Positions 5,937 to 63,949 of a DNA stretch of 64,000 nucleotides are shown here, in pieces. The notes beneath the pieces were generated by a model. That model had not been told where the DNA came from. It made no database searches and saw only the letters and a program-made list of their open reading frames with translations. Position 1 is the first letter of the stretch. Each line of letters opens with the position of its first letter. Origin of the DNA: Physcomitrium patens (taxonomy: Eukaryota; Streptophyta; Bryopsida; Funariales; Funariaceae). The position numbers and the translations under genes are program-made. The stretch spans positions 6,342,607 through 6,406,606 of the forward strand of contig NC_037275.1 in assembly GCF_000002425.4 (NCBI RefSeq), in the 5' to 3' direction.

Positions 5937-6347
5937 TCAATATTTAGTCCAATAACCTTTTGCTTCCAAAACAGCTGAAATCCTTCTTGGCATACTTTTG
6001 TGTAGTTTCTCACAATCTTTTGCATCAAAACTAGGGTAAATACTACAAACATTCTCCCACAATTCTTGAACACCTCTTGGCCTTGGAGTGACTTGGCTTA
6101 AATGCTGTTTGAGAAGGGCCCAAAAATATTCCATTGGATTCAAATCTGGAGATTGAACTGGCCATCGAAGGAGCTGAAATGGCTGTGAAGAGAGCCAAAA
6201 CTGAACACTTTTTGCCGTATGTTTGGGATCATTATCATGTTGAAAAACCACCTTAGTAGGATCTAAGTTGTAATTCTGTGTGGTACTTTGCAAGTAGGTT
6301 TCTAAATTTTTTTTGTACAAGTGTTGCTCCATTCTACCTTCAATTTG
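5937..6347 (-). pseudogene. Tc1 transposase, C-terminal third
   Basis: This frame continues the transposase beyond the LTR insertion. It carries the second catalytic Asp in QHDNDPKHTA and the Glu in SPDLNPMEYFW with 34 residues between them, defining a DD34E enzyme, then the conserved C-terminal MPRRI...KGYWTKY. Removing one ATTTG copy joins the two halves in frame with about 338 codons, the usual Tc1 transposase length. The annotated part starts at the insertion site, so it has no start codon of its own. Confidence 0.92.
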
Positions 6348-6877
6348 TGTCACGGACATACATATAATTACCTATATGAATAGATAAAAGTATGTAAAAG
6401 TAGGTTAATTGTGTAATATCTTCTAGAGAAGCTTCTTAGAAGCTTCATAGATGCTGCTTTGACTTTATAGGAGTCTATAGTTGACTTTTAGGTTAGAAAC
6501 TTGGTCAACAAGTTAGCCATGTGCCACGCATATTGGAAGCTTAAAGAACAAGCTAACTACGTGGTCCATCCATAGAAAACTTGCCTTGCAAGCAAAGGCA
6601 TGTGGCCTAGAAAGTCAACATATATTGGAGGTCTTATAGAACATCGCCACGTGGCTTCTAGTTAGATAGTATATATAGAGGCAAGAGTGAAGCCCTCTTC
6701 ACTCTTGTCAACTCCTTTCTTGCTTCTAGTCTAGTTTCAAGGGTCTCTAGTTTTCTTGTATTTTGGCAATAGCCATTCCAGTTTCTTTCTTAATATACAT
6801 ATTTCTATTTTGTCCTATTTCTTTTTGAGAAAAGTCTCACTTACTCTTTAGCTTTCATCGAGTTCTTGTCCCTGACA
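6348..6877 (+). repeat. 5' LTR of the near-intact chromovirus
   Basis: 530 bp, TGTCACGGACA...TGTCCCTGACA, with an imperfect inverted terminal motif. Two GAAnnTTC palindromes at 6428-6446, spaced by 3 nt, are a weak heat-shock-element-like cluster. A TATA box lies at 6670-6678. The LTR differs from the 3' copy at one position. Confidence 0.97.
6670..6711 (+). promoter_or_regulatory. LTR core promoter and predicted transcript start
   Basis: TATATATAGA starts at 6670, and the expected start site about 31 nt downstream falls at 6701. The 11 nt from 6701 (ACTCTTGTCAA) are the exact reverse complement of 6880-6890 just inside the LTR end. An 11-bp perfect stem with a 4-nt loop spans 6682-6707, so the predicted start lies in its right arm. 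Start position is inferred from TATA spacing and from the pairing, not observed. Confidence 0.6.
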
Positions 6878-6879
6878 GA

Positions 6880-6890
6880 TTGACAAGAGT
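6880..6890 (+). other. Putative self-priming primer-binding site
   Basis: TTGACAAGAGT lies 2 nt after the LTR end and pairs perfectly with the predicted first 11 nt of the transcript (6701-6711). This matches Tf1-type self-priming, where the mRNA 5' end folds back as primer. No tRNA-type TGG-starting site adjoins the LTR; a 9-nt match to the iMet primer site (TATCAGAGC, 6901-6909) lies 23 nt away from the LTR end and lacks its TGG. The same site is present in the decayed copies at 18590-18600, 38306-38295 and 41155-41145. Confidence 0.7.
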
Positions 6891-7089
6891 ACACTTACAA
6901 TATCAGAGCTTTGTCTTTTCTTGATTAAGAGTGGATTACCCCTTTTTCTTGATAAGACATAAGCGCATTAGAAGTTGCGGATTACCCTCTTTTAAACTGA
7001 TATTGTTCTTAGTATTTTCTTTGTTATCAATTCCTCTCTTCTATTTGTTTTGAGCGTTGTTAGACATCTTCTCTTTTCTAAGTGCTACT

Positions 7090-7956
7090 ATGGCAGAGCT
7101 TGTTGAAATGAAGAGTGCAATGGCACAGATGCAAGAACAATTGAGGGAGTTAATGCTTGCGATGCATCAACTCAATTTACCACCACAAGGAGCAACAAGA
7201 ATGGTAGGAAGTGAAGATATAGAGATGATTGGGGCTGCTTCAACATCTGCACCAAACCATGTCCCTTCTCCCAGAATGCAACACCCTTCGAGTGTTAGAG
7301 AACCGAGAGTTGCCTTGCCCGAGAAGTTTGATGGTACCAGATCCAAGTTTCGAGGATTCATCAATCAGGTCCAACTAGTGATTGAACTTCAACCCCAGAG
7401 CTATCCAACTCCAGGGTCACAAGTAAGATTCATTGGTACACTTCTTTCAGGTTCAGCATTGTCATGGTTTTCATCTTTTCTTGAACGACGAGATCCAATA
7501 TTGGATAATCTGGAGGCTTTTTTGGCGGAGTTTCGATCCATGTTTGGAGAACATGCTGCAATTCGTGTTGCAACCAACAAGATCCGTATTTTGCGACAAG
7601 GCAATCGATCAGTAACATTATATGCTTCGCAATTTCGACAACTTGTAACTGATATCAAGTGGGATGATGCCGCACTTGTGAGTCAATTTCTCTACGGATT
7701 ACAATATGAGGTAAAGAAATTGATGCTTAATTTACCTGATCCTCAAACATTGAGTCAAGCAATTGACTTTGCTGTGAAGTGCGACAATCGACTTTTTGAA
7801 TTTCGATCCGAGAGTCGCACAAGTGGGCCTCAACGTTACTACAATTCAATGGCAACACCGACGTCTCCTCAACACATACCTTCGGAAGTAGAGGATATGC
7901 AAATTGATGCGGTACGTTTCAAACCTCTTACTGAGCAAGAAAAGTCTCGTCGTTGA
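7090..7956 (+). CDS. gag: Gag of the chromovirus, ends at a premature TGA
   Basis: The first ATG in frame is at 7090 (MAELVEMKSAMAQMQ). The N-terminus is Met/Gln/Leu-rich and probably coiled coil, followed by a Ty3/gypsy capsid domain with the typical LSGSALSWF and FLYGLQYEVK-like motifs. The frame stops at TGA 7954-7956. Directly after it, in the same frame, comes a CCHC zinc knuckle (feature at 7957-8097), so the stop removes the nucleocapsid part. Decayed relatives have TGT at this codon (18-25 and 39-41 kb copies), so the stop is private to this copy. Gag packages the element RNA into particles in the cytoplasm. Confidence 0.9.
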   Translation: MAELVEMKSAMAQMQEQLRELMLAMHQLNLPPQGATRMVGSEDIEMIGAASTSAPNHVPSPRMQHPSSVREPRVALPEKFDGTRSKFRGFINQVQLVIELQPQSYPTPGSQVRFIGTLLSGSALSWFSSFLERRDPILDNLEAFLAEFRSMFGEHAAIRVATNKIRILRQGNRSVTLYASQFRQLVTDIKWDDAALVSQFLYGLQYEVKKLMLNLPDPQTLSQAIDFAVKCDNRLFEFRSESRTSGPQRYYNSMATPTSPQHIPSEVEDMQIDAVRFKPLTEQEKSRR

Positions 7957-8097
7957 CAAGAAGGATTGTGCTTATATTGTGGAGAACCCAAGCACACTGC
8001 TCAACATTGTCCAAAGAAGCAACGTAACTACAAAATGAGGAGTACGGCTGTCAAAGAAGACAGTATGTCGGAAAACGAGTACGTCCAGCTACAATAG
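7957..8097 (+). pseudogene. Gag zinc-knuckle part beyond the premature stop
   Basis: Same frame as gag. It encodes CLYCGEPKHTAQHC, a CX2CX4HX4C nucleocapsid knuckle, then a basic tail, and ends at TAG 8095-8097. It would be made only by readthrough of the TGA at 7954-7956. The pol frame is open from 8028, so this region overlaps pol by about 70 nt in the -1 frame, which is where a gag-pol frameshift would occur. I saw no canonical X-XXY-YYZ heptamer. Confidence 0.85.
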
Positions 8098-11000
8098 GGA
8101 CCGTGCGGCTGGAATCTCGTACAACTTCTAATAAAGGTCCTATCCTCTCCTCAAAACCATCTCCTTGTTTTATAATAGATGTGCGTTTAGGACCTAATAA
8201 TTACAAAGCCTCTGCCTTGGTAGATTCAGGAGCCTCATCTTGTTTTTTAGATGAAGAATTTGCTAGATGTCATAGAATATCATTAATACAAAAAACTAAA
8301 CCTGTACACGTAGAAGTCATAGATGGTCGTCCGTTGTCTTCTGGAGATGTAACTCACGAAACACTTCCTGTAGATGTAGTAATAAATGGTCATAGTAGTT
8401 GCGTAATTTTTAATATAATTAGATCTCCCTCTAATCCAGTAATTTTAGGCTTATCATGGTTAGAAAAGTATAATCCTCGAATAGATTGGATTTCTCGTAA
8501 ACTTGATTTTCCTCAGAGCATTAGTAACAGTTCTATTAACCAAGTAAAAAACCATGAGTCTAGTATAGTAAAACTCACACCTATAGGTGCAAAAGCATTT
8601 ATACACGCAGCAAAAGAAGGATCAACTTTTGCTATTTATGCTGCACCTATTTCTGAAAGCGTAAAGACTTCAAGTGGCATTCCAAGTCAATATCAGGATT
8701 ATCAAGACGTTTTTGAGAAAAAGAATGCAGATATTCTTCCTGAGCATCGCCCATACGATTGTTCAATCGATCTCAAGGAAGGAACTCAGCCACCATTTGG
8801 ACCAATTTACAGTTTATCGCAAGATGAGTTGGCTGAACTCAAGACATATATTGACGAGAATTTAGCGAAGAATTTTATACGCCATTCAAAATCTCCAGCA
8901 GGAGCTCCAATTTTATTCGTAAAGAAAAAAGATGGATCTTTACGAATGTGTGTTGATTATCGAGGACTCAACAAGATCACAATCAAGAACAGGTATCCAT
9001 TACCTTTGATATCAGGACTCCTTGACCAGTTAAATCAAGCTAAGATCTATACAAAAATAGATCTAAGAGGAGCATATAATCTAGTACGGATCAAAGAAGG
9101 AGATGAATGGAAGACTGCGTTTCGAACCAGGTACGGGCATTTTGAATATAATGTCATGCCTTTTGGACTCACGAATGCACCAGCTGCTTTTCAACATCTC
9201 ATAAATGATGTATTTCGTGAATTCTTAGACAATTTTGTCGTCTGCTACCTAGACGATATCCTGATTTATTCTAAGAATGTTGAAGAACATGAAATACATG
9301 TTCGTCAAGTATTACAAAAACTCAGAGATGCAGGATTGTACGCCAAGATGGAAAAGTGTGTATTTCACACTACTCAAGTTGACTTTTTAGGATACACCAT
9401 TTCAAATGATGGTCTTATGATGGATTCTAAGAAAGTCCAAACAATCATGGATTGGAAGATTCCAAAGACTGTGAGAGATGTCCAATGTTTCTTGGGATTT
9501 GCCAATTACTATCGGATCTTCATCAAAGACTTCTCACGAGTTGCAGCTCCACTTACACGCTTGACTAGTAAAGATAAATTCCAATGGAATCAAGAAGCGG
9601 AAGCAGCATTTGAAGCCTTGAAGACATCGTTTGTCTCTGCACCAGTCTTATATCGTGTTGATTTTTCCAAGGCATTTTTTATGGAAACAGACGCATCGGA
9701 TTTTGCCTTGGGTGCAGTTTTATCACAAATGGGAACAGATGACAAACTTCATCCGATAGCTTTTCATTCAAGAAAATTCTCAGCAGCCGAGATCAATTAT
9801 GAGATCCACGATAAAGAACTTCTTGCAATCGTGGATTCCTTTCAAGAATGGCGTCATTATCTAGAAGGCGCTTCTAGTCCAGTCACTGTGTATACAAATC
9901 ACAAGAACCTTGAGTATTTCATGTCAGCACGCGTGTTGAATCGTCGTCAAGCTCGTTGGAGTATGTCTTTGTCAAGATTCGAGTTCATTATCACTTATCG
10001 GCCAGGAAAACAACAAGGTTTGTCCAATGCCCTGTCTAGACGTTCTTATTTTGCACCAAAAGAAGGAGATGCAGCTTTTGAGCAACAAAGAACGGTCCTC
10101 TTGAAACCGGAGCAATTTCATCTCCGAGCAGTGAAATCAACATTGACTGTTGATTCAACTTTTCTCAAGCAAATCCAGTCCAGTATGTCCTCAGACCCTC
10201 TTGTTCATGATATCGAGAATAATTCTTCCAAGTCTCATGATTCTTCTAAGTTCGAGTTCAAGAATAATCTATTACATTTTGAAGGACGCCTATATGTTCC
10301 AGAAGGAAAAGCACGTTTGCGTGTTCTTCAAGCACGTCATGACTTTCCAGCAGCAGGGCACTTTGGATATAATAAGACTCTGGAACTCATATCAAGAGAT
10401 TTTTGGTGGCCACAAATGTGGAAGTCAGTCAAAGACTTTGTACAATCATGTGATATTTGTTCAAGATCAAAAACTCCTCGACATCGACCTTACGGACTTC
10501 TTCAGCCATTACCTATACCAGAACAACCATGGTCTTCTGTTTCTATGGATTTCATCACAGATCTTCCAAACTCAAGAACTTATGATTCTATATTTGTGAT
10601 AGTAGATCGTTTCACCAAGATGGCACATTTTATGCCATGTACAAAATCTATCACAGGTGAAGAAACAGCTAAGCTTTTCATTGATAATATCTATCGCTAT
10701 CATGGATTACCTAAAGTTATCATATCGGATAGGGGAACTCAATTTGTGTCGAGATTCTGGAGGACTCTTTTCAAGATTTTAAAAGTGGACATAAAGCTAT
10801 CTTCAGCTTTCCATCCTCAAACTGATGGACAAACAGAGCGCGTAAACCAAGTCTTGGAACAGTATTTAAGGTGTACCATCAACTACCAACAAGATGATTG
10901 GACAAACCTTCTGCCATTGGCAGAGTTTGCTTATAATAATACGGTACATTCTTCCACGCAACAAACACCTTTCTTTGCCAATTATGGCTATCATCCACGA

Positions 11001-11591
11001 CTTGATACTTTTGATTTTTCAAAAATTGATAATCCTGCAGCAGAAGATATGGCAAATCGGTTGTCAGAGTTACATGCAATAATGAAGGCGCAGTTGAAGA
11101 AAGCTCAAGAACGACAAAAGATAAATGCAGATGTATATCGTAAAGAGCAACCACAACTCAACGTGGGTGATAAGGTATGGCTACTTCGTCGCAATATCAA
11201 GACCACTCGACCTTGTGACAAATTGGACTATCGTAGGCTTGGCCCCTTTTCTGTTTCTGAACAGATCAACCCAGTTGCATATCGGTTACATCTACCGGAG
11301 TCAATGAAGATCCATCCTGTATTCCACGTGTCTCTTCTTGAACCATATAAGACAGTGGATATACAAGGAAGAAGACAAATGCCACCGCCTCCTATAGAAG
11401 TAGATAATAATGAAGAATTTGAGGTGGAAGAGATATTAGACTCAAGGCGGCGCCGAAATAAGCTGGAATATCTTGTTCATTGGTGCGGATATGATATTAG
11501 TGAGCGCACATGGGAGCCATCCAGGAATCTAGCAAATGCATCAGCTAAAGTCAAAGTTTTTCATCAACGACATCCATCAAAACCAAGATGA
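8028..11591 (+). CDS. pol: Pol polyprotein with chromodomain
   Basis: The frame is open from 8028; the first possible non-ATG start would be GTG 8103, so translation by -1 frameshift from gag is likelier. Domains in order: aspartic protease with VDSGASS; reverse transcriptase with MPFGLTNAPAAF and catalytic YLDD; RNase H; integrase with an HHCC finger (H...H...CDIC) and D-D-E (MDFITDLP, ISDRGTQF, TERVNQ); a GPF-type module; and a C-terminal chromodomain (FEVEEILDSRRR...YLVHWCGYD...TWEP). The RNase H has TNHKNLEYF and LSNALSRR where relatives have TDHKNL and a DALSRR-like end, so two catalytic Asp are Asn. The 33-39 kb relative still encodes Asp at both sites. Everything else looks intact. Confidence 0.95.
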   Translation, partial: LQNEEYGCQRRQYVGKRVRPATIGTVRLESRTTSNKGPILSSKPSPCFIIDVRLGPNNYKASALVDSGASSCFLDEEFARCHRISLIQKTKPVHVEVIDGRPLSSGDVTHETLPVDVVINGHSSCVIFNIIRSPSNPVILGLSWLEKYNPRIDWISRKLDFPQSISNSSINQVKNHESSIVKLTPIGAKAFIHAAKEGSTFAIYAAPISESVKTSSGIPSQYQDYQDVFEKKNADILPEHRPYDCSIDLKEGTQPPFGPIYSLSQDELAELKTYIDENLAKNFIRHSKSPAGAPILFVKKKDGSLRMCVDYRGLNKITIKNRYPLPLISGLLDQLNQAKIYTKIDLRGAYNLVRIKEGDEWKTAFRTRYGHFEYNVMPFGLTNAPAAFQHLINDVFREFLDNFVVCYLDDILIYSKNVEEHEIHVRQVLQKLRDAGLYAKMEKCVFHTTQVDFLGYTISNDGLMMDSKKVQTIMDWKIPKTVRDVQCFLGFANYYRIFIKDFSRVAAPLTRLTSKDKFQWNQEAEAAFEALKTSFVSAPVLYRVDFSKAFFMETDASDFALGAVLSQMGTDDKLHPIAFHSRKFSAAEINYEIHDKELLAIVDSFQEWRHYLEGASSPVTVYTNHKNLEYFMSARVLNRRQARWSMSLSRFEFIITYRPGKQQGLSNALSRRSYFAPKEGDAAFEQQRTVLLKPEQFHLRAVKSTLTVDSTFLKQIQSSMSSDPLVHDIENNSSKSHDSSKFEFKNNLLHFEGRLYVPEGKARLRVLQARHDFPAAGHFGYNKTLELISRDFWWPQMWKSVKDFVQSCDICSRSKTPRHRPYGLLQPLPIPEQPWSSVSMDFITDLPNSRTYDSIFVIVDRFTKMAHFMPCTKSITGEETAKLFIDNIYRYHGLPKVIISDRGTQFVSRFWRTLFKILKVDIKLSSAFHPQTDGQTERVNQVLEQYLRCTINYQQDDWTNLLPLAEFAYNNTVHSSTQQTPFFANYGYHPRLDTFDFSKIDNPAAEDMANRLSELHAIMKAQLKKAQERQKINADVYRKEQPQLNVGDKVWLLRRNIKTTRPCDKLDYRRLGPFSVSEQINPVAYRLHLPESMKIHPVFHVSLLEPYKTVDIQGRRQMPPPPIEVDNNEEFEVEEILDSRRRRNKLEYLVHWCGYDISERTWEPSRNLANASAKVKVFHQRHPSKPR

Positions 11592-11686
11592 AAACCTCTC
11601 TTATAAAAGAGACAAGATTGAGACAAGATAACATTCAATTTCCTATCCTTGTTTGTAACTTCTTTGCATTTTGTGACGCTAATTAG

Positions 11687-12109
11687 ATGGAGAGCCAACA
11701 ACCAGCGGATTCAACTCAAGAACCTTCGTTTGCTGACTTACCGGATGAGACATTGCGATTGTCACAACCTTCAAGACGACGCAACCGAAATGAAGACCCT
11801 CAAGAACGACATGTTCTTCCTCGAATAGATGGTGAGATACAACGCGTTTGGTATCACGACCTTGGAAGAGATTCTCGATGTTTGGTGATATTATTGGAGA
11901 TAGGAACGACTCCTGATGGTGTTTCAAATGTATTATTTGAAGGAAGTTATGAAGGCCTCAACAGTGATCAAATAACAGGGTGGTCTTTTCGCCCTGGAAT
12001 GGGACACTATCGATGGCTAAGAGGACCCATCAACTATCTTCGAAGAGAACAAAGATCAGAGTATGTAGCAAATACAATTCGCCGCATATTAGATTTTCTC
12101 AATATATAA
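11687..12109 (+). CDS. Third ORF of the chromovirus, unknown function
   Basis: A 140-codon ATG frame lies 95 nt after pol and 41 nt before the 3' LTR. The product has an Arg-rich N-terminal part (SQPSRRRNRNED), a central hydrophobic strand (CLVILLEIG) and a conserved C-terminal block (GHYRWLRGPINYLRREQ, then a helical tail). It has no signal peptide or membrane segment, so it is not an obvious envelope protein. A homologous frame occupies the same place in the element at the right end of the window (63818-63465), with MDSQ, RLSQPTRSRRR, LVIVFE and GHYRWLQG conserved. Traces also exist in the decayed copies. Conservation across two families argues for function, but I do not recognise the family. 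Confidence 0.8.
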   Translation: MESQQPADSTQEPSFADLPDETLRLSQPSRRRNRNEDPQERHVLPRIDGEIQRVWYHDLGRDSRCLVILLEIGTTPDGVSNVLFEGSYEGLNSDQITGWSFRPGMGHYRWLRGPINYLRREQRSEYVANTIRRILDFLNI

Positions 12110-12136
12110 TCACCGCTCCTCATGGAACTCATCCCT

Positions 12137-12150
12137 AGAAGGGGGGGTAA
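12137..12150 (+). other. Polypurine tract
   Basis: TAGAAGGGGGGGTAA-like purine run directly before the 3' LTR, the expected plus-strand primer. The decayed copy at 33808-33823 shows the same site with G replaced by A. Confidence 0.85.
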
Positions 12151-12680
12151 TGTCACGGACATACATATAATTACCTATATGAATAGATAAAAGTATGTAA
12201 AAGTAGGTTAATTGTGTAATATCTTCTAGAGAAGCTTCTTAGAAGCTTCATAGATGCTGCTTTGACTTTATAGGAGTCTATAGTTGACTTTTAGGTTAGA
12301 AACTTGGTCAACAAGTTAGCCATGTGCCACGCATGTTGGAAGCTTAAAGAACAAGCTAACTACGTGGTCCATCCATAGAAAACTTGCCTTGCAAGCAAAG
12401 GCATGTGGCCTAGAAAGTCAACATATATTGGAGGTCTTATAGAACATCGCCACGTGGCTTCTAGTTAGATAGTATATATAGAGGCAAGAGTGAAGCCCTC
12501 TTCACTCTTGTCAACTCCTTTCTTGCTTCTAGTCTAGTTTCAAGGGTCTCTAGTTTTCTTGTATTTTGGCAATAGCCATTCCAGTTTCTTTCTTAATATA
12601 CATATTTCTATTTTGTCCTATTTCTTTTTGAGAAAAGTCTCACTTACTCTTTAGCTTTCATCGAGTTCTTGTCCCTGACA
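12151..12680 (+). repeat. 3' LTR of the near-intact chromovirus
   Basis: 530 bp, equal to the 5' LTR except for one A/G difference (position 12335). It is preceded by a purine-rich primer site and followed by the ATTTG duplication. Confidence 0.97.
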
Positions 12681-13291
12681 ATTTGATACCAAGCACCCGG
12701 CCCAAAAGCAGTCATACAACCCCAAATCTTAATTGAACCACCACCATGTTTGACAGTTTGACTAACATGTTTAGGTCCAGGTCGTTCTCCTTCTCTCAAC
12801 CAACACCAAGACCTATCATTTGAGTTCATTAGGTTAATCTTTGTCTCATCACTGAAAATAATCCGTCTCCAATCATCAATGGTCCAATTTTTGTATTTAT
12901 GAGCAAAACTCAACCTTGCAAGAACATGTCTTTTGGCAAGTAGAGGCTTCTTTTGTTGCACACAAGCACCCAAACCAGCTTCTCTCAAACCACACCTCAA
13001 GGTGATGTCTGAGAAGTGTTTATCTGTTTTTTTTCGAAGTTGTTTTGCAGCTGCACTTGCCGTTTTGAGACAACCAACAGTGACAAGGTACACACCAAGT
13101 CGCTTCTCTTGCTCTCCTAAAACCTTTGGACGTCATCCTCTTTGCTTTTCTATTTCACCACTAATCTCCTTCCTCAGATGAGCTATTGAAGACTGACTCA
13201 TTCCAAGTGAGTCTGCAACTTTTCTTGTAGAAACACCACTCCTAAGCTGCATCAATGCTTGGTGCTTCAATGATTCACACAACCGAGGCAT
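12681..13291 (-). pseudogene. Tc1 transposase, N-terminal two thirds
   Basis: The frame begins with an ATG at 13291-13289 (MPRLCESLKHQ) and encodes a helix-turn-helix DNA-binding region, then the first part of the DDE domain with the first catalytic Asp in IFSDETKIN and the family motif VKHGGGSI. It is broken twice: an in-frame TGA at 13135-13133, where relatives have Gly in a GGRP-like motif, and the LTR retrotransposon insertion at 12680/12681. Its continuation is at 6347-5937. Apart from these two lesions the frame is open, so inactivation looks recent. Confidence 0.9.
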
Positions 13292-13623: not shown

Positions 13624-14303
13624 TATATAAATACAAAATGTTTATTTCCAGAAAATGTATGTCCCCCCCCCCCCCAAGTTATGACTTTAATGGGATTCTC
13701 CCATCAAACTCTTTAGCCTCTTTTAGCAAGTTTGAACAGACCCGGCGGCAGAAAACGACGCTGAGGTTACTTGGGTAAGCAAAGCAGCACAACCCAATTT
13801 GTGTAGAAGGCAGTAACTGGATAAGAAAAGCTGCATTCATCCGCAGTAGGCGCAGCTTGGCAGCGATGAGAGAAACAGCGCGAAGAAACACGTCGAAGAC
13901 TCGGCATCGCCTTCGGATACTATTCAAGGGTAAGCAAGCGTAAGAGGAGCCATGCGTGGTGTGCAAGTTACAACCCCAGTCGGCTGGAGAGTGGATGATG
14001 GAGAGCATCTGTTCACAGCCGTACTTGGCGCAGCACCACAGCGTCGTCAACTCGGCAGCGGGCCACAAGGACGTGGTATCGAGAAGAGAATTTTAAATGG
14101 GATTGTGCGATGTTGTTCTCTTTGCGGTCGGGGGGTGTTTTTTTTTTTTTTTTTTTTTGTTTTTTTTGAATCGCAGGGAATTAATATAGTTGGGTTTTCT
14201 TAATTTTTTTGATGGCCATCTTTGGTGTTCCTGACGAACCCGATGGGCAGCTTCTGTGCTTTTGCGATAATCTTATCTCGGTGTTCATCCAACTCGGAAT
14301 TCT
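13624..14303 (+). other. Upstream region of the diphosphatase gene
   Basis: The DNA between the Tc1 element and the diphosphatase gene is GC-richer than its surroundings. It holds a run of 13 C at 13663-13675 and a T-rich tract around 14140-14170. Sequence from about 14060 onward has a decayed counterpart at 27613 onward, so the duplicated block includes this leader. A good splice acceptor (CTTTTGCTGCAG, ending 14321) suggests a 5' intron. No TATA box is obvious. Confidence 0.4.
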
Positions 14304-14516
14304 GTGTTTCTTTTGCTGCAGATCAGTCTTCCTCAAGCTCTGAGCTTCACCACGGCATTGGCTTCACCGGCATTGAGGGACTGTCCGAGTTGGGTAGGGT
14401 TTTCAAAGTGCATCTTGTCACTTAGTTTCGGTAGGATATCTAGGGTCGGTCCCGTAAGAGTTAGATGTGCGGCGGCTAGTTCACCTCGTGGGAGAGAGAG
14501 GCTTAGTGGAAAAAAT

Positions 14517-15548
14517 ATGGCGAACGAGGAGGCTCTCGCCGCGAAATTAGCTGAGATGACGCTGATGAAGAAGGAGCAATCTCCGCAAGAGAAGCCTCTA
14601 TTCTCGTTCGGAGTGATTACCGATATTCAATATGCTGACATTGACGATGGGAAATCCTTCCAAGGAGTGCCGCGGTACTACCGGCACGCATCTGAAGTAT
14701 TGGAGAGAGCAGTGGATGCATGGAACAAGCACGGCAACCTCGCATTCGCAGTCCACTTTGGTGACATTGTGGACGGATTCTGCCCCAAGGAGCAATCCAA
14801 ACAAGCGTTCGAACGCATCTTATCTGAGCTCGCCAATTTCGAAAGAGGTCCCGTCTATCATATGCTGGGCAACCACTGTCTCTACAACCTACCGCGCCAA
14901 GAGTTGAACCAATTCCTCAACATCCCCACCTCGGGCTTGCATTCTTACTACTCCTTCAGTCCCAATAATGAATTTTTGTTCGTTGTTTTAGATGGCTACG
15001 ATGTGAGCGCTCTGGGCTGGCCAGCGGACCACCCCCACACCGCGGCCGCAATGGAGCTCTTGAACACACGGAATCCCAACAAGGAGAAGAACAGTCCGGA
15101 GGGGCTCGTCGGTGTAGAGCGCAGGTTTGTGAAGTTCAACGGCGGTGTCGGGGATGAGCAGCTCGCATGGTTGGAAAACACTCTGCGCGAGGCGCAAGAA
15201 GCGCAACAGAAGGTTATCATTTGCTGCCACTTGCCAATGGACCCAGGCGCATCGTTTCCTTCCGCTCTGCTCTGGAATTACGACGCTGTGTTGGCGGTTG
15301 TGCACAAGTTCAACTGCGTGGTGGCGTGCTTTGCCGGACACGCCCATGAGGGCGGACATTCTGTGGACTCTCATGGCGTGCATCACCACGTGCTGGAAGC
15401 GGTGCTGGAGTGCCCTCCCGGCTCGGATGCGTATGGCTATGTCAACGTTTTCTCTGACCATCTCTCGCTTTGCGGGACGGATCGCATGCGTTCTTACGAC
15501 ATGAACTTCCAGAGCTCAGGAATGCACCCCTCTCATTCTTTGAATTGA
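14517..15548 (+). CDS. Mn-dependent ADP-ribose/CDP-alcohol diphosphatase-like
   Basis: From ATG 14517 the product has 343 residues, normal for this metallophosphoesterase family. Family members cleave ADP-ribose, CDP-alcohols and related compounds to nucleoside monophosphate. All metal-site motifs are present: D-I-Q (about 36-38), GDIVDG (82-87), GNH (118-120), CCHLP (His about 238) and GHAHEGG (about 274). The same frame is open upstream through 14304, past a splice acceptor at 14321, and encodes a Ser/Arg-rich stretch ending VRVRCAAASS that resembles a plastid transit peptide, so the true start may lie in an upstream exon. A decayed second copy lies at 27613-28400 and 32936-33277. The transposon pair ends 0.6 kb upstream of the leader. 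Confidence 0.92.
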   Translation: MANEEALAAKLAEMTLMKKEQSPQEKPLFSFGVITDIQYADIDDGKSFQGVPRYYRHASEVLERAVDAWNKHGNLAFAVHFGDIVDGFCPKEQSKQAFERILSELANFERGPVYHMLGNHCLYNLPRQELNQFLNIPTSGLHSYYSFSPNNEFLFVVLDGYDVSALGWPADHPHTAAAMELLNTRNPNKEKNSPEGLVGVERRFVKFNGGVGDEQLAWLENTLREAQEAQQKVIICCHLPMDPGASFPSALLWNYDAVLAVVHKFNCVVACFAGHAHEGGHSVDSHGVHHHVLEAVLECPPGSDAYGYVNVFSDHLSLCGTDRMRSYDMNFQSSGMHPSHSLN

Positions 15549-18044: not shown

Positions 18045-18587
18045 TTATTAGGATTAAAAATCTAGGTATAAGTAAACATAAATAAAATTTACAATATCTT
18101 ATTAAATTACTTTTTTGAAGCTTCATAGATGCAAAATTTTTTTTCCTAGTATTTGTAAGTAATTAGTAGGGTAAAAATTTAGCCAACAAGTTGGCCACAT
18201 TTTATACATGTTGGCAACTTGTGATACAAACTGGCTATGTGGCATACATATTAGAAACTTATCTTACAACTTAGACATATGTCTCAAAAATTGGACATGT
18301 GTTGAATGATCTATAAAACGTTGTCACATAGCTCCTTAGTTAGATAGTATACATAGAGGTAAGAATAAGGCTTTCATTGCTCTTATCAACGTCTTTCTAA
18401 AGTTCTTGATTTATTTAAGAATCTTGAATATTTTTATAATTAGCAGTGATAATTCTAGTTTCTAACTTATATCTATCTTAGTTTGTTTTTGTTATTGTTT
18501 TGTTTTGTTTTGTTTTGTTTTTTTTTTTTCAATATCACAAGAGTGTATTACTTCTTTACAGATTTGTTATCATTCATGCCTTTGATA
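18045..18587 (+). repeat. 5' LTR of decayed copy 1
   Basis: Matches the 530-bp LTR, including the TATA region and transcript-start segment (GCTCTTATCAA, 18379-18389). It ends near 18587 and is followed, after 2 nt, by the primer-site equivalent TTGATAAGAAT (18590-18600). Confidence 0.8.
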
Positions 18588-20141
18588 GTTTGATAAGAAT
18601 TCTAATTTATTATATATATATATATATATATAAGTTGATGATCTTACTTCTTTTGTTGTATTTTAATATTATAAACTATCCACCTTTCAATTAATATTTT
18701 TTATTATCTAATATTGATTTTTTCTTTAATAAAAATAGAAAATCCATCTTTATTAAATTGAAATTTTTTTTCTTTTAATTTGACTTATTTATATGTTAAA
18801 ATTATTTTTTATAGAAATAAAAATTAATTATAGATATTATATTTGGTGGAAGAAAGAATAAATTTATATTTATTGCAAATCTTTACGAGCTTATTAATAT
18901 ACTTAATACAAAAATTTCATGTATTACTAATATCAACCATAAATGTATTATTTCTATGCATACAAAAGAAATCAACAAAGAGATCCAATGTCTATATAAA
19001 GAAGTTGTGCAGTTGAAAGAAGCAAGTAAATCAACTTCAAAAATAAAGACAAAAAGTCTCGTTAATACAAGTATGAATGGGAGAAAGATTAATATGTTTG
19101 AGAAGTTTAATGGAACAAGATTAAAATTTTAATTATTTTTATAATAAGTTAAGTTTTATTTAAGTTTATATCTTTGTGAATACTCTTTTGGATTTACTCA
19201 AATAGGATTTACAAGTACATTTTTATTTGGTAGTACTTTTTTTCAATTTTCACCTTTGATGGAAAAATATTCATGACTTCTACATGATCTATATTTATTT
19301 TTGGAAGTGTTTAAAAATTATGTTTGGAGTAAGTGATTAAAAAAATAACATAAAAAAAATTCATGTCATTATAACAAGAGTCATAATCAACTACTATCTA
19401 TACTATAAAAGTCCTAAATCTTGCTTGAGACATGGATAAAAATGACAAAGTTCTTATCAATCAAATGAATTAAAGGACAATGTTAAAAAATTATTATTAA
19501 TAATACCATAAATAAACTCATTAGAACAATTTATTACTCAAGCTATTGTATATAATAATCAAATTTTGAAAAGACACCAAGAACAAAGAATTGATTGAAG
19601 ATGAGTAAATCAAGTTATAATAAAAACTTATTTATTAATATAAAATTCTATGCAAATTGATGTAATATGTTTTAAAATTCTCTCATTGTAGCAAAAAAAG
19701 ACACAATGTTGTTAAGAATGATCATTGTTATATTGTGAAGAATCTAAATATAACACTCAATATTATTCAAAGAAGCATTACAACCACAAAATGAAAAGCA
19801 TGGATGTCAAAGAAGACAATGTATCAAAATAGAAGTTTATCTAGCTATACTAAGAAATATATGGTTAGAATTTAAACCAACATCTAATAAATCTCATATT
19901 TTCTTCTAAGAATCTTCATCTTGTTTTATAATAGATGTTTATTTAGGACCTAAAAATCACAAAACATCTACTTTGTTAAGTTCTTAAGCTTTACATTGTT
20001 TTTGAGATGAAAAAGTTTGTTAAACAATATAAAATACTTTTAATAAAAGAAAATATGCCAGTACATGTAGAAGTCATAGATGATCATCTTTTATCTTTTG
20101 GAAATGTTGTCAATAAAACTATTATTGTAGATATAATAACA

Positions 20142-28400: not shown

Positions 28401-28679
28401 ATGAGCGATGTTGTATTATATTCTCGTATTACATGACATTTGGCTTGAGAATACACCAAGCACTTGGCTATGGAAGATAAAAAGAAAATTGCAATAATAA
28501 GTCTTAACAACTCTTATAGATTCTTAAATAAATTACAATTAAAGATTAGCAAATATAATCAAACATAGATCAAATTCAATCAAAATTTCAAAAGAATTAT
28601 ATAAGAAACAGAAAGTATTCTTAGAGATCCATTAAAGAATCATAAAGAATTGATAAAGAAATTTAAAAATATATTAAAA

Positions 28680-29560
28680 TAGAAATCTTAATAAAATATT
28701 AAAATAGAAATCTTAATTAAATCCTAGTCAAAACCTAATCAAATTCTAGTCAAATCCTTGTCAAATCCTAATTAATTCCTAAATAAATCTTAATCAAATC
28801 CTAGCCAAACCCTAAACAAACTCTAATCAATCTTTAAAAAATCCTAAACAAATCTTAATCAAAATCCTAATCAAATTCTAAATAAATCCTAGTCAAATCT
28901 TAATAAATTCTAACGAAATCTTAAATAAATCTTAGTCAAATTCTAAACAAATCCTAAACAAATTCTAACCAAATCCTAAATAAATCCTAACCAAATCATA
29001 AAATAAATCCTAATCAAATCTTAAACAAATCCTAAAAAATCCTAAAAAATCCTAAAAAAATCCTAATCAAATTCTAATCAAATTCTAATCAAATCCTAGT
29101 CAAACCTTAATCAAATCCTAAATAAAACCTAATAAAATCCTAAAAAATCCTAACCAAATCCTAATCAAATCCTAAACAAACCTTAACCAAACTTTAGTAA
29201 AACTCTAAATAAATTCTAATCAATCCTAAACAAACCCTAAAAAAATCCTAAATAAATCCTAAATAAAATCTAGTCAAATCCTAAACAAATCTTAAAAAAA
29301 TCCTAAAAAAATCCTAAATAAACTCTAGTCAAATCCTAAACAAATCTTAAACAAATCCTAAAAAAATCCTAATCAAATCTTAAAAAAATCCTTAAATAAT
29401 TCTAAATAAATCCTAGTCAAATCTTAAATAAATCCTAACCAAATCCTAAAAAAATTCTAACCAAATCCTTATAAAATTCTAAAAAAAAACCTTAATAAAA
29501 TCCTAACCAAATCCTAGTCAAACCCTAATCAAATTCTAAATAATTCCAAGTAATTCCTAT
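28680..29560. repeat. AAATCCTAAN minisatellite inside a family-B LTR
   Basis: About 880 bp of imperfect tandem units, mostly 9-11 bp, of the form AAATCCTAAtC / AAATCCTAAAC. Related arrays sit at the same relative place in the copies near 50.3, 53.2 and 56.8 kb and, inverted, near 26.9 kb. It resembles degenerate plant telomeric CCCTAAA but has a different period and no pure telomeric run. Confidence 0.85.
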
Positions 29561-38850: not shown

Positions 38851-41490
38851 CCTAGTTAAATAGTATATATAGAAGGTAAGAATGAAGCCTTCTTCATTCT
38901 TGTCAACACCTTTTTAGTTCATAGTCTTGTTTCAAGACTTTTTAATCTTATTTTATTTAGCAATAGCCATTTGAATTTTAATACTATATTAATTTTAAAT
39001 AAATATCTATTCTTTCTAAGTGAATCAAGAGTATATTGAATTTTTGATTTTACAAGATTCATATCCTTGACAAATGCATTCATTTCTATAAGAAAAACTT
39101 TAGAAAAGCTGATACAATATAAGATTAGTGTTATAAAATCTTATATTGTATCAACTTTTCTAAGGTATTTCTTATGGTCAATAAAGGTCGTCTTTAAATT
39201 TTCAAATGTTATTTCAACTTCTTTATTTTACTCAATTTTTTCTTTAAAAGTCAAATAAATAAGTAAAGTTATAACTTTAAAAAAAACAATCTTGATAAAA
39301 TTTTGATAATACTTAGTAATTTTTTAAAAAAAAACATTAGATATCTTTTATTATTTTTGAGATCTTTTAATCCATGATAATTTGGAATTTTTTAGGATCT
39401 ATCATAAGGCCATGATTTGAAATGATGTATCCTAAGAAATCAACTTAAGTAGTATAAAATAAAAACCTTTTCATCTTAGCATATAATCTTACAATTTTAA
39501 GTTTTTATAATATATATCTAATATAAAGTTTATAATTTTTATATTTTTAGAAAAAAAAATAATATATTTATCTAAAAATTCTTTTAAAATATCATTTATT
39601 AGATATTAAAAAGTAATTGGTATATTTGTGAGTTTAAAAGGCATGGTATTGTATTCAAAATGTCTATATTTAGTTTGAAATGTAATCTTTTATTTATCTC
39701 TTTTTTTAATATGTACCAAATTGTATGCTATTTATAAATCTATTTTGTATAGATGTTAGCTTAATTCAATTGATTAAGAAGACTTGATATCAACGTAGAG
39801 GATATTTATTCTTATTGGTAATTTTATTGAGCCTTCAATAATCCATACACATTTGCAATGATTCATCTTTTTTCTTTACAAACAAAATAGGTGCTCTTAT
39901 TGGAGATTTCAAATAGCATTTGAAGATCTTAGTTAGGTATTTAAGAAATCTAATCTATTTAAAGATAATACTTATTTGGTCACAATAAATCTAAAAATAA
40001 CTAGATTAAAAAGGATTCTTGTAATATTGAATATCATTAAGCTATTATGACCATTTATTGCTTTATTTATAGGAAGGATTTTATAGATAACATCTCCAAA
40101 AGACAATAGACAACTATCTATGATTTTTATATCCATAGGTTTGATTTTTTTTTACTAAAGGTGTTTTAACAAAGTCTTCATCTCAAAAAACATATTAAGG
40201 CTTTTAAACTAGCAAGACAAAGGTTTTGTAATTTTTAGATCTTAAATAAACATCTGTTGTAAAACAAAAAAAAAAAATCTTAAAAAAGAGTAGGATCTTC
40301 ATTGGGCATTGTATAAGATTCAAGGTGCACAATTCTTATTGTAGCTAGACAAACACGTTTTTTTATATATTGTCTTTTTTGACAACTACACATTTCATTT
40401 TGTTTTTGTCTTGCTTCTTTGGACAATTTTGAGTAGTTTATTTAGATTCTTCTCAATATAAATGGAGTTCTTGACAATGTCAATTCTTTTCTTATTTACT
40501 AAGAAGTTTGAAACATATTATAATACTTTGTATGACTTACTTTTTTAAATATATGTGTTAAATAGACATTGGTGTTGCCATAGAATTGCAAAAACGTTGA
40601 GGCTTATTTATGCAATTATTAAAATTGACATTTAAAAAGACAATTGTTTTACTTTACATGAAAGTCAATTATTTAAATCAATGATCAAATAAGTTCAACA
40701 TCAATTTCTTTATTTTATATTATAATCAATAAAGAAATTGGTTGGTGAATGCATTATCATTTTATTTAATATCAATCATAAGTTGTCAAAATTACAAAAC
40801 ATATAGTATTATAGATTGATTGCCTTAATGCAATGTACAAATTTTTTTAGTTGTAAGATAAATTGCATTATATTTTACATACATGGATTGAAACTTTATC
40901 AAAAAATCCTCCAAATTATTCAATATTGGATCATATCATTGAAGAAAAATTAAAAATGATGATAAAATAGAACTTAAAAGTAGTCCTCTAATAAACTTGA
41001 CTTACAATCCTAAAATTGAATAACTTTGAGATTGAAGTTTAATGACCAATTATACTTAATTGATGAATCTAATTTCATTTACAATATTATAAGTGCACTA
41101 TATGTTTAAATGTTCTATTTATTTAATTATAATATGATAAATACACTCTTGTCAATTTGTTAAGGACAAAAATTTTAAAAACTATAATAGATTTTATTAC
41201 TAAGAAACTATAAATTCTTCAAAATTAGAATAAAAGCAAGAAAGTTAATGATGTGAATGAGAAAGGTCTCACTCTTGCCTCTATATATATTATTTAACAA
41301 GAAATTATACAGCAACATTTTATAGGACCTCCACCACTTATCAAATTTATAAAAAACATATTTAACTTAAAAGACAAGTTATATATATATATGCACCACA
41401 TGACCAACTTGTACTACAAATAGCCAACATGTGCAAAATATAACAACCTTGTTGGCCAAGTTTTTAACCTATCAATCATTGATAGATACA
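38851..41490 (-). mobile_element. Rearranged chromovirus fragments (copy 3)
   Basis: A truncated sense LTR (38851-39071) is followed by antisense pol and gag remnants (39071-40480, including a reversed zinc-knuckle match near 40395-40460) and a partial antisense 5' LTR (41158-41490). The primer-site equivalent at 41155-41145 reads TTGACAAGAGT, identical to that of the near-intact element. Parts between 40500 and 41140 align poorly. Confidence 0.7.
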
Positions 41491-42551
41491 CATAGATTCA
41501 AAAAATAAACTCTCTTATAAATCTAAAAATATACTCAATATCAAAAATAAAAAATACACTCTCTTATTTCAAAATATCAATGAACACATCTATTTAACTT
41601 TTATAAAATGTTGAGTTGCAATTTCAAAAGATATCAATCAATTTTGTGCAATTTTGATGCAACTTAGATTATACAAAAAAGATAGAAAATATCTAAAATC
41701 CAATTTCCCTTCATCTCATATTGTAGTGCAACCCTCATCCAAAAGGACATCTTCCTATTAATACAACTCTTGCTGAGTTGAATATAACTTCTTGATGACA
41801 AATGGCACACTCCTTCTGAACCGAAAATTACTAAATAAATAGATAACTACATACACCTCAGTCATGATAAATATTGATATCGTCCTCAATGTTTCGGTAC
41901 TACACCATGGCTCCACTGGTCCGCCAATCATTCAGCCACATTAAGCTAGGTTGATGAGCCATTCCAACATTGTAAAAAGAGACGATTGCAGGTTTTTGAT
42001 GTTCGTCACCCGAGTGTTTCTCCAACTTAGACATCAATGCCTTGGATCTTTATATGTGACACCTGATTGGAAAATCCCGGAATACAGATCATGCCCAATG
42101 CAAATTAACCATTTGAAATACACGTCCTTTGCCATGCACTTCAAGTTCAATCCTCCTATGGTGGATAAAAGTTTCCGGAGCCTCAATTTCTCAACTAGGA
42201 AATTTCCAGCTACAACACTGAACTAAAAAATTAAACCACTCATACCAGACACACAAGAAATCTTGTTCTGTAAGTGTGTGATACGAGCAACATTAATGCT
42301 TCTCGTCACAGGTAAAGAAAACTCTCTGACCTGTTAATTTCGATCACAGGTCCCATCGCTAAAGTATCACATAAATATTCTAAGTTGCTCACTAACCAAG
42401 GATTGAGCGCACCAAAACATACTCATCACGATTCTGGAAGAAGAACAGCTTTCAAAAGACTGAAAACGAGTTCATTAACACACTATTCCAGTCATTGCGC
42501 CCCCTTCGAACTCCGAAAACTATCCATGATTTCTGCCCCAATACTAGAATG
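41490..42551 (-). other. Downstream flank / 3' UTR of the two-TM gene
   Basis: From about 41.7 kb sequence becomes GC-moderate and undecayed. On the minus strand this is downstream of the gene at 42995-42552. The plus-strand ORF at 41951-42226 lies in the part duplicated at 27350-27612, and there it is full of stops, so it is not supported as coding. Confidence 0.45.
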
Positions 42552-59689: not shown

Positions 59690-62285
59690 TCATGCATTGT
59701 TTGTCAAGGAGCCAACAATGTGTACAAATTGCCAAACAAAATGGCAATAATATCCAATAAGGCCTAATAATGAGTGGACTTCAAAAGCATCCACGAGGGT
59801 TGGCCAATCCTTTACTCCTTTTAACTTATCATGCTCTATATGCATGTCTTTGGAAGACACAACATGCATCAAAAAGGTGACCTCCGACTTTCAAGCGAAC
59901 TATCTTGTAGGTGGCACAACACTTTCTATAGATGTTACTATCACCATTGTGAGCACAGCTGATATCTCCCTTACAATGATATTCACATTTTGATTGCTTG
60001 TAATAGAAAGGACTATCTTGTAGGTGGCACAATACTTTCGATAGATGTTATTCATACTCTTCAAGGATTTTACTATAGACTAAGATATCATCGATAAAAA
60101 TAAATATATACTTCTCTATAAGGTTTCAAAATAATCTGTTCATGTGATTCATTAAGGAGGTTGGAACATTCGTGAGGCCAAAAGATAAAATAAGCCATTT
60201 AAAATGTCCATAGCATATATGAAAGGCAGTCTTTTTTATATCATCTTTTGCAATAAGTATCTACTAATAGCCACTCCAAAGGTCCTATTTGCTAAAATTG
60301 ATTATACCTTGAAGTTGGTCAAGAAGATCATCTATACATGGAAGTGGATATGTATTCTTGATAGTCTACTTATTGAAGCTTTGATAGTTGATACAAAGAC
60401 AAAGTCCACTAATTTCTTTGAGTACAAAGGATTCATGTGATTCTTATGGTGATATGCTTTCTTCAATGAGGCCCTTCTTTAAGAGTTTGTCCAATGACTT
60501 TTGCAGTTCTATTTAAAAGGGGATACCTTTATTAAGAGACATTCTACTAAGTAAGTCAATTTGAAAGACATTCCAATATTGGCATATAAGTTGCCATGCC
60601 CGTTCTATTCTTTTAATTGTCTTTTCCACTATTAACGCAAGATTTGGAACTACTATATTTATTGGTCACTTATTTTATATTTATTTCTTTATAAAGATTA
60701 TTTCTATAAATAAGTCTTAAGTTGCACATAATTTTGCTACCTCACTCAATGTAGAGGTACAAAGAATTACCTTACATCCACCATCTTTGAAAGAGATCAT
60801 CCTAGCTAACTAATGAACTTGCTTATTTTCCACCTCTAGCTATGGCATACTAAAGATAACATCATATCTGAGCTTTGTTACCTTGAACTTTTTTCTTAAG
60901 GCGTAGGTGTCATTCAACCTCAAAGTTTCTTCTTCACATGTCTCAATCAATACATTCTTTCAATTATTTGTTAAGAATATATTCCTTCTTTTGATTATTT
61001 TGGTTTTAATCCCAAGTTAGTTGACAATCTCAATTGAAATGTAATTTTTTGCAGAGCCACAATCCACAAGCACTTGACGTGGCTATCTTCTTAGTCAATT
61101 TGTTAGACATACCAATTAAGCTTTTTGATAGTTGTCCAAGGCCATGCCATTTGTTTCTCAGAGATAGCACCTATTCCCAATATTAGTCCTTAGTGTCTTT
61201 AATACGGAGCCTCGTTTCTCTCTCCTATTTTGTTATCGTCTTAGTGAGTCTCAAAATTGTGAATTTGCCTTGATTTTTTGGTACTTGAATTTTGATGTTT
61301 TGAACAACCTCTGATTTAGTAGCCTATCTCTAGACAATAAAAACATAATCCCTTCTATGCCAATATTTGTTGTCTTTGTGATTTCAGTAATCCTTGTAAG
61401 GCATCAATCTCCATCAGCGTTGATTGTTGTACCATAATATTGAATAATAACATAAGAATTTGTGCTATAGATTATGTTCAATAATTTTTGAAATCTATAG
61501 CATCAACTATTTCTATAATCCTAATTACTTCTTCAAATGTTTGTAGATTCCTAAGTTCTACTTCTTGTTAGATTACAAGTTTCAACCCTCATACAAATCG
61601 ATTTATGATCTCTGCCTTTGAAACATTACAAATTTGAAGACATAACAACTTCAATCGAAAGACATAATCTTACACTAACTTTGATTATGTAAGATTAGCT
61701 AACTAATTGCGTACTATCTTCTCCACATTGATGGACCAAAATTGACTCCTAAATTCATTTTTAAACTCTCGTTAGTCACAAAATCTACCTTAAGTCTCAT
61801 AGCTTTGAGCTTGATATTGCCATCAAATGGCTACTATATCTCTCAAATAGTTGGTTGCATATATAATTTCATTGGTGGTATTTGTCATAGATAATTAGAT
61901 GTATTGTTGCATGCTAAAGAGCTATTGACATATATCTTCTCGCTTTGAAGTTCTAAAATATGTACCAAGCTTATTCAATTTCAGCCTAGCAGATATCGAT
62001 TCTCTTGTCCTAAAAGCTTCTATTTATCCTTGTAGAGTAGCTATTTAGCCTAAAAGATGTTGTATTTGAGTCGCTATCTAGGATTTCTTTGTTATATTCT
62101 CTATGCTATAATTTTTTTACTGAACTCTATTAATATAATACCTTCTTCTCTTCCAATTGACTTCTTTAAAGTAGCTTGTGGTAGCCTCAAAATAGTACCT
62201 GATGTAATGACAATAATTGACTTCCAACTACACAATGGCTATCAATATACTACCAAAGAACAGACTAACGTTTGCTCTGATACCA
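59690..62285 (-). mobile_element. 5' half of a decayed antisense Ty3/gypsy element
   Basis: On the minus strand, from the primer site at 62285 leftwards, come gag remnants, a protease region and RT. RT is recognisable by FGLTN and FIDDILVYSK (about 60170-60050) and by a connection segment like LKGVKDWPTLVDAFEVHSLLGLIGYYCHFV (59840-59730). RNase H and integrase are missing, so the element is truncated at about 59690. An internal duplication of about 38 bp (59898-59936 and 60013-60051) interrupts RT. It is less decayed than the chromovirus copies and belongs to another family. Confidence 0.8.
62274..62285 (-). other. tRNA-iMet primer-binding site
   Basis: The minus strand reads TGGTATCAGAGC, the 12-nt site complementary to the 3' end of plant initiator tRNA-Met, one base from the LTR end. 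Confidence 0.95.
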
Positions 62286-62286
62286 A

Positions 62287-62799
62287 TGAAATAAGACTAA
62301 ACTATTTATAAGATCTAAGATCCTTCCAATCTATACCAATATAAATCCCATCACAATGTAAGAAATGTAGATCAGAACAAAATTGAACAAAAGTAAACAA
62401 AATGGAACTTGATAGGTAAAACAAAGCTAAAGAAAATAAAACAAAATTGAACAAAAAAAATATAAAATCAAACTTTATCAAGAAAAAAAGATCAAAGCCA
62501 TATTTAATCAAATATCCAAATGGACTAGTTAATCCTATTTATATTTTTTGCAATCATCTTAGAACTTTCTAGAATGTTCATAATAATGGGCCCTACTTAG
62601 ATAACCACCTTAAATTCTTTCTAGAATGTTTCATGGTGAATCCCACATAGCTCGCCAATTTAGCCTTAATTCTAGAAACTTCTCAAACATGGCTCAGATT
62701 ACCTATTTTTATGCATCAATAATACAAATATCTTATCCATATCCTATTATAATTAGAGTCAATAAGGAATTAGAATCCTACATCATACCAAATCTTACA
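62287..62799 (-). repeat. 5' LTR of the antisense gypsy element
   Basis: About 513 bp from TGTAAGATTTGG (minus strand, 62799) to ...TTATTTCA (62287). A minus-strand TATA-like ATATAAATAGG lies near 62545. The right terminus is inferred from the TGT/CA convention and could be off by a few bases; no second LTR is available for comparison. Confidence 0.6.
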
Positions 62800-63018
62800 A
62801 AGTAAGTGATGTTAATTATTTTAGCATAGCAATTATTATAATATATTGATATGAAAGTTTTTAAGAGTGCAAATTGCATATTGATTGTTAAATTCTTACA
62901 AGTCTCAAAGATATTTTATAGAAAATATTATTAACTTAGAGTAAAAAATAGTAAGACATGTTGACCTAAGATTTAAGTAGATTATTATTAAGATAGATAA
63001 AGATATGATGAGTACTTG

Positions 63019-63414
63019 TCACGGACACAGAAATACAGACTCGAGATCTAACAAGAAGTTCAAGAAGAACTGGCAAGAACTAGATTAATCAGATGAATAC
63101 AAAAACAACACCAGAGAAGTGAGCTAGAGCTCCAAGAGATGTGTTGTCGAGTCTGAAGAACTTTTCAGCCTCGATTCTAATATATACTCCTATTTAGGAA
63201 GCTTCTCAAGCAACTTCTACTAACTAGGAAGCTTCTAGAAGGTTCCAGAGATTTACTTCTAGAAGGTTCTAGAAACTTATCTCTAGAAGGTTCTAAGGAC
63301 TATGTCCCTAACATCTTCTACTAACTAAGAAGCTTCTAGAAGGTTCTAGAGACTTGCTTCTAGAAGGTTCTAGAAACTTGTCTGTAGAAGTTTCTAAGGA
63401 CTATGTCCCTAACA
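63019..63414 (-). repeat. 3' LTR with a duplicated U3 start
   Basis: 396 bp, minus strand TGTTAGGGACA...TGTCCGTGACA. The first 101 bp of U3 are tandemly duplicated (63315-63415 and 63214-63314, plus coordinates). A minus-strand TATA box (TATATATTAG) lies at about 63186-63177, and the predicted start, AGACTCGACAA, at about 63154. The other end of the target duplication cannot be checked. Confidence 0.85.
63228..63394. promoter_or_regulatory. Six heat-shock-element arrays in U3
   Basis: Four arrays have four perfect alternating units (GAAnnTTCnnGAAnnTTC or its register): 63228-63245, 63257-63274, 63329-63346 and 63358-63375. Two shorter GAAnnTTC arrays lie at 63286-63293 and 63387-63394. They lie 40-210 bp upstream of the minus-strand TATA box. 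This is the binding pattern of trimeric heat-shock factors. Confidence 0.8.
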
Positions 63415-63464: not shown

Positions 63465-63818
63465 TCAGTACCAACGCAAGAAAATGAAGATCTGTCGCAT
63501 AATGTCTGCTATGAACTCCAACTGTTGTTCACGAGGCAAGTGGTTCATCAGCCCTTGAAGCCAACGGTAGTGGCCCACTCCTTCAACTTCTGACCAAGCA
63601 TGAACTTCTGTGTCTTCATTGTAAAATTGTCCTGCAAACACGCCTTTTGGCTAACCATCGTAAGCAGGCTCGGACTCAAATACAATCACCAGTGATCGGT
63701 TACTCGATATCCTCCGTCGTCATCGTGGTGTAGGCGATTCTTCATCTCAGGGTCGCCTTCGTGACCTAGTCGGTTGAGATAATCTGACTGGCATAGTATC
63801 TATCTCTTGGCTATCCAT
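63465..63818 (-). pseudogene. Third ORF homolog with three internal stops
   Basis: From ATG at 63818 to TGA at 63467-63465, about 117 codons stay in one frame. Two TGA and one TAG interrupt it; at least two look like CGA-to-TGA changes. The translated blocks MDSQ, RLSQPTRSRRR, SLVIVFE and GHYRWLQGLMNHLPREQQ match the third ORF at 11687-12109 in order and spacing. Preservation of frame despite stops shows that selection acted on the protein until recently. Confidence 0.85.
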
Positions 63819-63949
63819 ATCAAAAGACCAAACTATGGCTACTGAAAAAATTCTATTTTATCTTAGAGAAAATAACTAAATCAACTACGAATTTTGGTGG
63901 TACTCTCCCCTTTTCTTATATTCTTGGGAGGGCAAGCTTCAGAACGAAG

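Follow-up and report, generated by a model that had tools for sequence, protein, structure and literature searches.

In Tf1 of S. pombe, the first 11 bases of the RNA are complementary to a site past the LTR and prime reverse transcription from there (PMC7175516). Tj1 of S. japonicus self-primes like Tf1 (PMC4600332), and hairpin priming has been mentioned for some chromoviruses (PMC3601003). Self-priming has also been proposed for Tcn1 of Cryptococcus neoformans (PMC7175516), the namesake of a clade that occurs in basidiomycetes, mosses and Selaginella (Novikova et al., 2010, PMC2864245). For most moss and club-moss members of the clade, which have been linked to Tf1/sushi, self-priming has been predicted from matches of at least 10 bp located 0-5 nt after the LTR; an aromatic-cage chromodomain is present in 95% of Tcn1 elements (Neumann et al., 2019, PMC6317226). 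For SM-Tcn1 of Selaginella, the part of the description drawn on here reports that neither a tRNA nor a self-priming site was found (PMC2864245). PpatensLTR2 has been placed in a tree, Tf1/sushi elements have been reported in nonseed plants, and a folded 'pretzel' leader has been described (PMC10085805). Physcomitrium patens itself contains RLG1, an abundant chromodomain element that is expressed in protonema and may have a fungal origin (PMC7466625).

The window, the whole 64,000-nt stretch of P. patens DNA that was analysed, contains at 6343-12685 what is very probably a recently inserted moss chromovirus of the Tcn1 clade (Tf1/sushi type) whose own RNA serves as the primer of reverse transcription. 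Its two 530-nt LTRs (6348-6877, TGTCACGG...CCTGACA, and 12151-12680) are identical at 529 of 530 positions, the sole difference being A/G at 6532, and comparison of the flanks reveals the target-site duplication ATTTG at 6343-6347 and 12681-12685. All features of the element lie on the plus strand. The gag frame (7090-7956) has 288 codons followed by TGA and matches Retrotrans_gag, Ty3_capsid and DUF4939; a PDB search to E = 1 matched PEG10 alone. In eight other copies the gag frame has 335 codons (three copies) or 148-180 (four), and in one its start was not found. The pol open frame (8028-11591, 1187 aa) encodes protease, RT, RNase H, integrase, SH3_Tf2-1 and a chromodomain (PF00385, E=2e-14, residues 1131-1181), which has F, W and Y at what we take to be the three aromatic-cage positions, as judged by eye. 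Downstream of a polypurine tract (AGAAGGGGGGG, 12137-12147) lies the 3' LTR. The TG...CA LTRs, the duplications, the polypurine tract and the PR-RT-RH-IN order make the element a Ty3/gypsy (Metaviridae) LTR retrotransposon, and the chromodomain at the integrase C-terminus makes it a chromovirus. An extra 140-aa ORF located 3' of pol (11687-12109) has no Pfam match; the matches listed include six full-coverage predicted proteins of P. patens (81-89% identical) and, beyond the moss, unnamed relatives that are ~38-52% identical.

The original prediction singled out an 11-nt complementarity, and this is exact: TTGACAAGAGT at 6880-6890 is the reverse complement of ACTCTTGTCAA at 6701-6711. The site begins 2 nt past the end of the 5' LTR (LTR end 6877, spacer GA), no TGG-type tRNA site adjoins the LTR, and 31 nt separate the first T (6670) of the TATA box TATATATAG (6670-6678) from the primer start at 6701, all as had been claimed. 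The primer start coincides with a C|A step, and from this step and the TATA spacing we infer that the RNA starts at 6701. An RNA with A6701 as its 5' end would fold its first 11 bases back onto 6880-6890, RNase H would cleave after base 11, and the freed 3' end would be extended through U5. Plus-strand synthesis would later copy the primer, so that each new site would be templated by it and the two would stay matched. In RNA folds the primer end pairs with the site end, with further pairing just 5' of the site. The fold z-scores are modest (-1.99 and -2.28; -1.28 and -1.33 for longer pieces), and no clear third duplex of the Tf1-type 'pretzel' was seen in the folded 5' leader.

The chance level of such a match was estimated in three ways. 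In dinucleotide shuffles of the LTR, with sites starting 0-5 nt past it, a match of at least 11 nt anywhere in the LTR appeared in 42 of 20,000 trials (0.0021), and the real LTR matched 20,000 random places of the window at a rate of 0.00625. When the primer had to lie 25-37 nt after a TATA and the site to start 0-5 nt past the LTR, a 264-kb region yielded a match in 128 of 300,000 random draws, those with N being skipped yet kept in the denominator. A single match is thus unlikely but possible by chance, and it is the changes seen in relatives that carry the argument. One old copy, e92683, provides an example of a chance match, as the 11-mer pair that the scan found there does not involve its LTR+2 site.

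Six loci, L001-L006, were found when prokaryote genome contigs were scanned with the pol protein. In L001, whose pol is 69% identical to the focal one over the best segment, an LTR-like end (GTCCCTGACA) is followed by a 2-nt spacer and then by TTGTCGAGACTG, the exact complement of an upstream CAGTCTCGACAA; with the C|A step as the starting point, the L001 primer is the 11-nt AGTCTCGACAA. It differs from the focal primer at three of 11 positions, all three of which are compensated in the site. Thus L001 pairs with itself at 11/11 positions (12/12 including the preceding C), whereas crossed pairing with the focal element gives 8/11 both ways. Over the stretch from the TATA box to the LTR end, only 138 of 226 aligned columns match between the two. 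The L001 contig (CADCWO010000091.1), which encodes this moss-like chromovirus, is binned to a Synechococcales genome and is probably contamination from a moss or a moss-like plant. No primer/site pair (at least 10 nt, upstream of pol) was found in L002, L003 or L006, and L004 and L005 gave just a 10-mer overlapping open reading frames; all five contigs may lack LTRs. No relative was confirmed among the viral contigs scanned. Because the match is exact, its place and promoter spacing fit, and the changes in this pol-found relative are compensated, self-priming is the best reading, and the proposal of a self-priming lineage is supported.

Copies in the moss genome give a second view of the pair. 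A search of 470,438,890 bases (101 contigs) with 6701-6890 yielded 394 first-look candidates; all 40 of the places scored are 100% identical to the query over its length, and eight of these, read as loci, have eight different 5' flanks. Searches with gag, covering 264 kb (4,290 N) in which the window lies, gave nine loci, the focal one (A) included. A site is located at LTR+2 in all nine, recognized by scan in A, D, e91026, e182142 and e196171 and by eye in B, C, G and e92683. None of these sites, nor that of L001, starts with TGG, and no gag locus joined an intact tRNA site to the loss of the 11-nt match, the combination that had been named as evidence against self-priming. The focal site pairs with its own primer at 11/11 positions. 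In G, an L001-like element on the minus strand whose 3' LTR is at 63017-63414 and whose 5' LTR lies beyond the window, the site of the 5' copy pairs at 10/11 positions with its own primer and at 7/11 with the focal one. Pieces resembling the extra ORF are visible by eye behind G, at ~63468-63857 (minus strand). Copy C, old and related, has a primer (ACTCTCTTTTCAA, 38484-38472, minus strand) and a site (TTGATAAGAGAGC, 38306-38294) that are each 2 nt longer and form 11 of 13 pairs, and the first 11 bases of its site pair with the focal primer at 9/11 positions.

The remaining copies are decayed and of the focal type. The site pairs at 10/11 positions with its own and 11/11 with the focal primer in e182142, at 10/11 with both in e196171, at 9/11 and 10/11 (by eye) in e92683, and at 8/11 and 9/11 in e91026. 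In the 5' LTR remnant of copy B (41145-41501, minus strand), the LTR+2 site is TTGACAAGAGT itself (41155-41145), which pairs with the focal primer at 11/11 positions, while its own primer is decayed (6/11 at best). Copy D (primer GCTCTTATCAA, 18379-18389; site TTGATAAGAAT, 18590-18600; plus strand) was considered as a covarying example and rejected, since both counts are 9/11. Because none of these decayed sites pairs better with its own primer than with the focal one, the copies speak for common descent and a common place, without covariation. The expectation that the two 11-mers covary therefore stands for the focal type against the L001/G type, together with copy C, and the decayed focal-type copies do not discriminate. 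The LTR copies between 18069 and 41501 (18.07, 25.98, 33.78, 38.82, 38.85 and 41.50 kb) form a nest of old insertions of the same and related families.

The primer is also part of a palindrome. At 6680-6709, a 13-bp stem with one G.U pair is formed by a left arm (6680-6692), a loop (6693-6696, CCCT) and a right arm (6697-6709) that includes the first nine of the 11 primer bases; the left arm, in U3, thus forms the stem with bases -4 to +9 counted from the predicted start of the RNA. The 3' LTR carries a second copy of the palindrome (12483-12512) and primer (to 12514). L001 has the same 13-bp stem and 4-base loop at its positions 108-137, and its three primer differences are compensated in the left arm too, one of them replacing the G.U pair. 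The hairpin has computed energies of -18.2 (A), -21.0 (L001), -18.9 (G), -17.0 (e182142) and -13.5 kcal/mol (e196171), and those of the primer:site duplex, in the same order, are -14.4, -16.2, -14.1, -10.6 and -14.2 kcal/mol. The stem appears decayed by eye in several other old copies. Stem length is weak evidence, as 27 stems of 13 bp were counted in the window, LTR ones included, and here too the compensated changes carry the argument; in a palindrome scan based on TATA geometry, TA repeats drowned the signal. Templating would explain why primer and site match but not why the U3 arm follows them, which makes a function of the arm probable. An RNA starting at 6701 would lack the left arm at its 5' end and contain it in the 3' LTR, where the hairpin would lock the second primer copy, so that only the 5' copy would pair with the site and be cut, an end-specific switch. 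That primer, LTR+2 site and U3 arm form such a three-way covarying set, with the 3' LTR hairpin masking the second primer copy, is put forward tentatively and is rather unlikely as it stands. At title and abstract level, with partial journal coverage, no hairpin covarying with a self-primer was found in the literature, and the 13-bp hairpin is possibly new.

Two other explanations of the inverted repeats can be weighed against self-priming. The match might be fortuitous, with a half tRNA, or a tRNA that pairs deeper in the leader, as the real primer. An 11-mer somewhere in the LTR is expected by chance at ~0.002-0.006, which leaves some room for this, and the leader near 6900 contains TATCAGAGC, nine letters of the usual initiator-Met tRNA site, which is also present at 62.28 kb. 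However, a tRNA 3' end requires TGG, and it is CAA that immediately precedes TATCAGAGC. This nine-letter stretch is not conserved in L001, G, C or D, and it was rejected as a relic initiator-Met site on its absence from these four. Moreover, the LTR+2 site keeps its place and changes with the LTR between the focal and L001 types, which is unexpected for a tRNA site. This first explanation is highly improbable. Rfam and ARAGORN gave no match over the window. Alternatively, the repeats might serve transcription or DNA structure, as a palindromic promoter reaching from the TATA box to the start, with the LTR+2 site as a by-product. Relatives do share the 13-bp palindrome at 6680-6709, but a promoter element would leave a third matching copy, at LTR+2 and hence at the place of a primer site, unexplained in nine of nine gag loci, and this too has very little probability.

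The suggestion that the lineage came from a fungal-type chromovirus is supported by the domains (SH3_Tf2-1, chromodomain, PEG10/Ty3-like gag) and by the literature, and by the tree only in part, with few taxa. That tree, computed by a quick method with a root set by the analyst and a warning of long-branch joining, has 39 RT-RH-IN rows, among which Tf1, Cryptococcus Tcn1, Tekay, CRM, Reina and Galadriel are absent, so the Tcn1-clade assignment leans on the literature. The protein search scored 7,969 candidates and covered the best 120 of them. The focal row groups with L001 and unnamed rows, and moss-like and fungal rows stand apart from algal ones. A feature of the Tcn1 clade, a site complementary to the predicted start of R with no tRNA site, is seen here. 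It is nevertheless possible, if somewhat doubtful, that both the element and its priming are of plant origin and were inherited vertically in mosses and lycophytes rather than acquired from fungi. Published work favours horizontal transfer from fungi, yet the same paper leaves transfer versus descent open and keeps descent possible (PMC2864245). Two partial rows from the amoeba Planoprotostelium (51-52%) match as closely as the basidiomycete rows do, and the missing Tekay, CRM, Reina and Galadriel rows leave further room for descent. Against it, Tcn1 and Tf1/sushi elements form one cluster and have the same kind of priming (PMC6317226). In the tree, the fungi Microbotryum, Ustilago and Berkeleyomyces and a single amoeba row fall on the focal side of the split from the algae Closterium (charophyte) and Haematococcus (chlorophyte); this split has an SH-aLRT of 99, with long branches and the analyst-set root, and identities among the matches listed decrease from basidiomycetes (50 and 52%) to the ascomycete (47%) and algae (43%, or 48% for one partial row).

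By eye, the element interrupts a Tc1/mariner-like transposase remnant (~5940-6341 and 12686-13136, minus strand). Fungal-like mariners have been reported in P. patens (PMC7466625). A tRNA-primed gypsy element had been proposed at 62.3 kb: an LTR-like end, TTTCA, is indeed followed by an initiator-Met tRNA site, TTGGTATCAGAGC (62274-62287, minus strand), while the gypsy-type RT remnant further on was typed by eye. With this site at 62.28 kb, tRNA priming exists beside self-priming. Internal repeats ~77% alike occupy 28638-29559 and are partly common to ~53.2 and 56.7 kb. The ORF at 14271-15548 looks like a Mn-dependent ADP-ribose/CDP-alcohol diphosphatase from the names of its matches, the best named one being from the moss Ceratodon purpureus (70% over 93%). 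That the contig might be fungal, a thought prompted by the gag and the Tc1/mariner flanks, was rejected on this moss match and on the 470-Mb size of the assembly.

Set beside the described systems, the focal element shares with the Tcn1 clade, to which PpatensLTR2 and the Selaginella element SM-Tcn1 belong, a moss host, a chromodomain, Tf1/sushi affinity, a predicted self-primer and the lack of a tRNA site; no distinguishing feature was found in a comparison by description with the parts of the sources drawn on here (PMC6317226; PMC2864245). Cryptococcus Tcn1, likewise compared by description, has a fungal host (PMC7175516). Tf1 and Tj1 share the chromodomain but have yeast hosts, and Tf1 differs further in that its mechanism was shown by experiment and in its three-duplex 'pretzel', which is not clearly seen here. 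RLG1, the most abundant gypsy element of P. patens, likewise has a chromodomain, and its young copies are expressed and polymorphic (PMC7466625). Host, abundance and chromodomain suggest that the focal family is RLG1, which is known here by description. The original prediction presented self-priming in a plant chromovirus as a surprise, a view that does not hold for a moss, since mosses are known hosts of such chromoviruses and a prediction of self-priming for these elements is already in print (PMC6317226). The focal element is a good instance of the published prediction, to which the covariation test is an addition.

Self-priming in a land plant means that not all plant chromoviruses rely on tRNA primers; as a shared character, it also ties the moss elements to the fungal and vertebrate Tf1/sushi elements. 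If functional, the covarying hairpin would show how the element distinguishes the 5' from the 3' primer copy. As Physcomitrium patens is a laboratory moss with a transcribed gypsy element of top abundance, the mechanism is testable in a plant.
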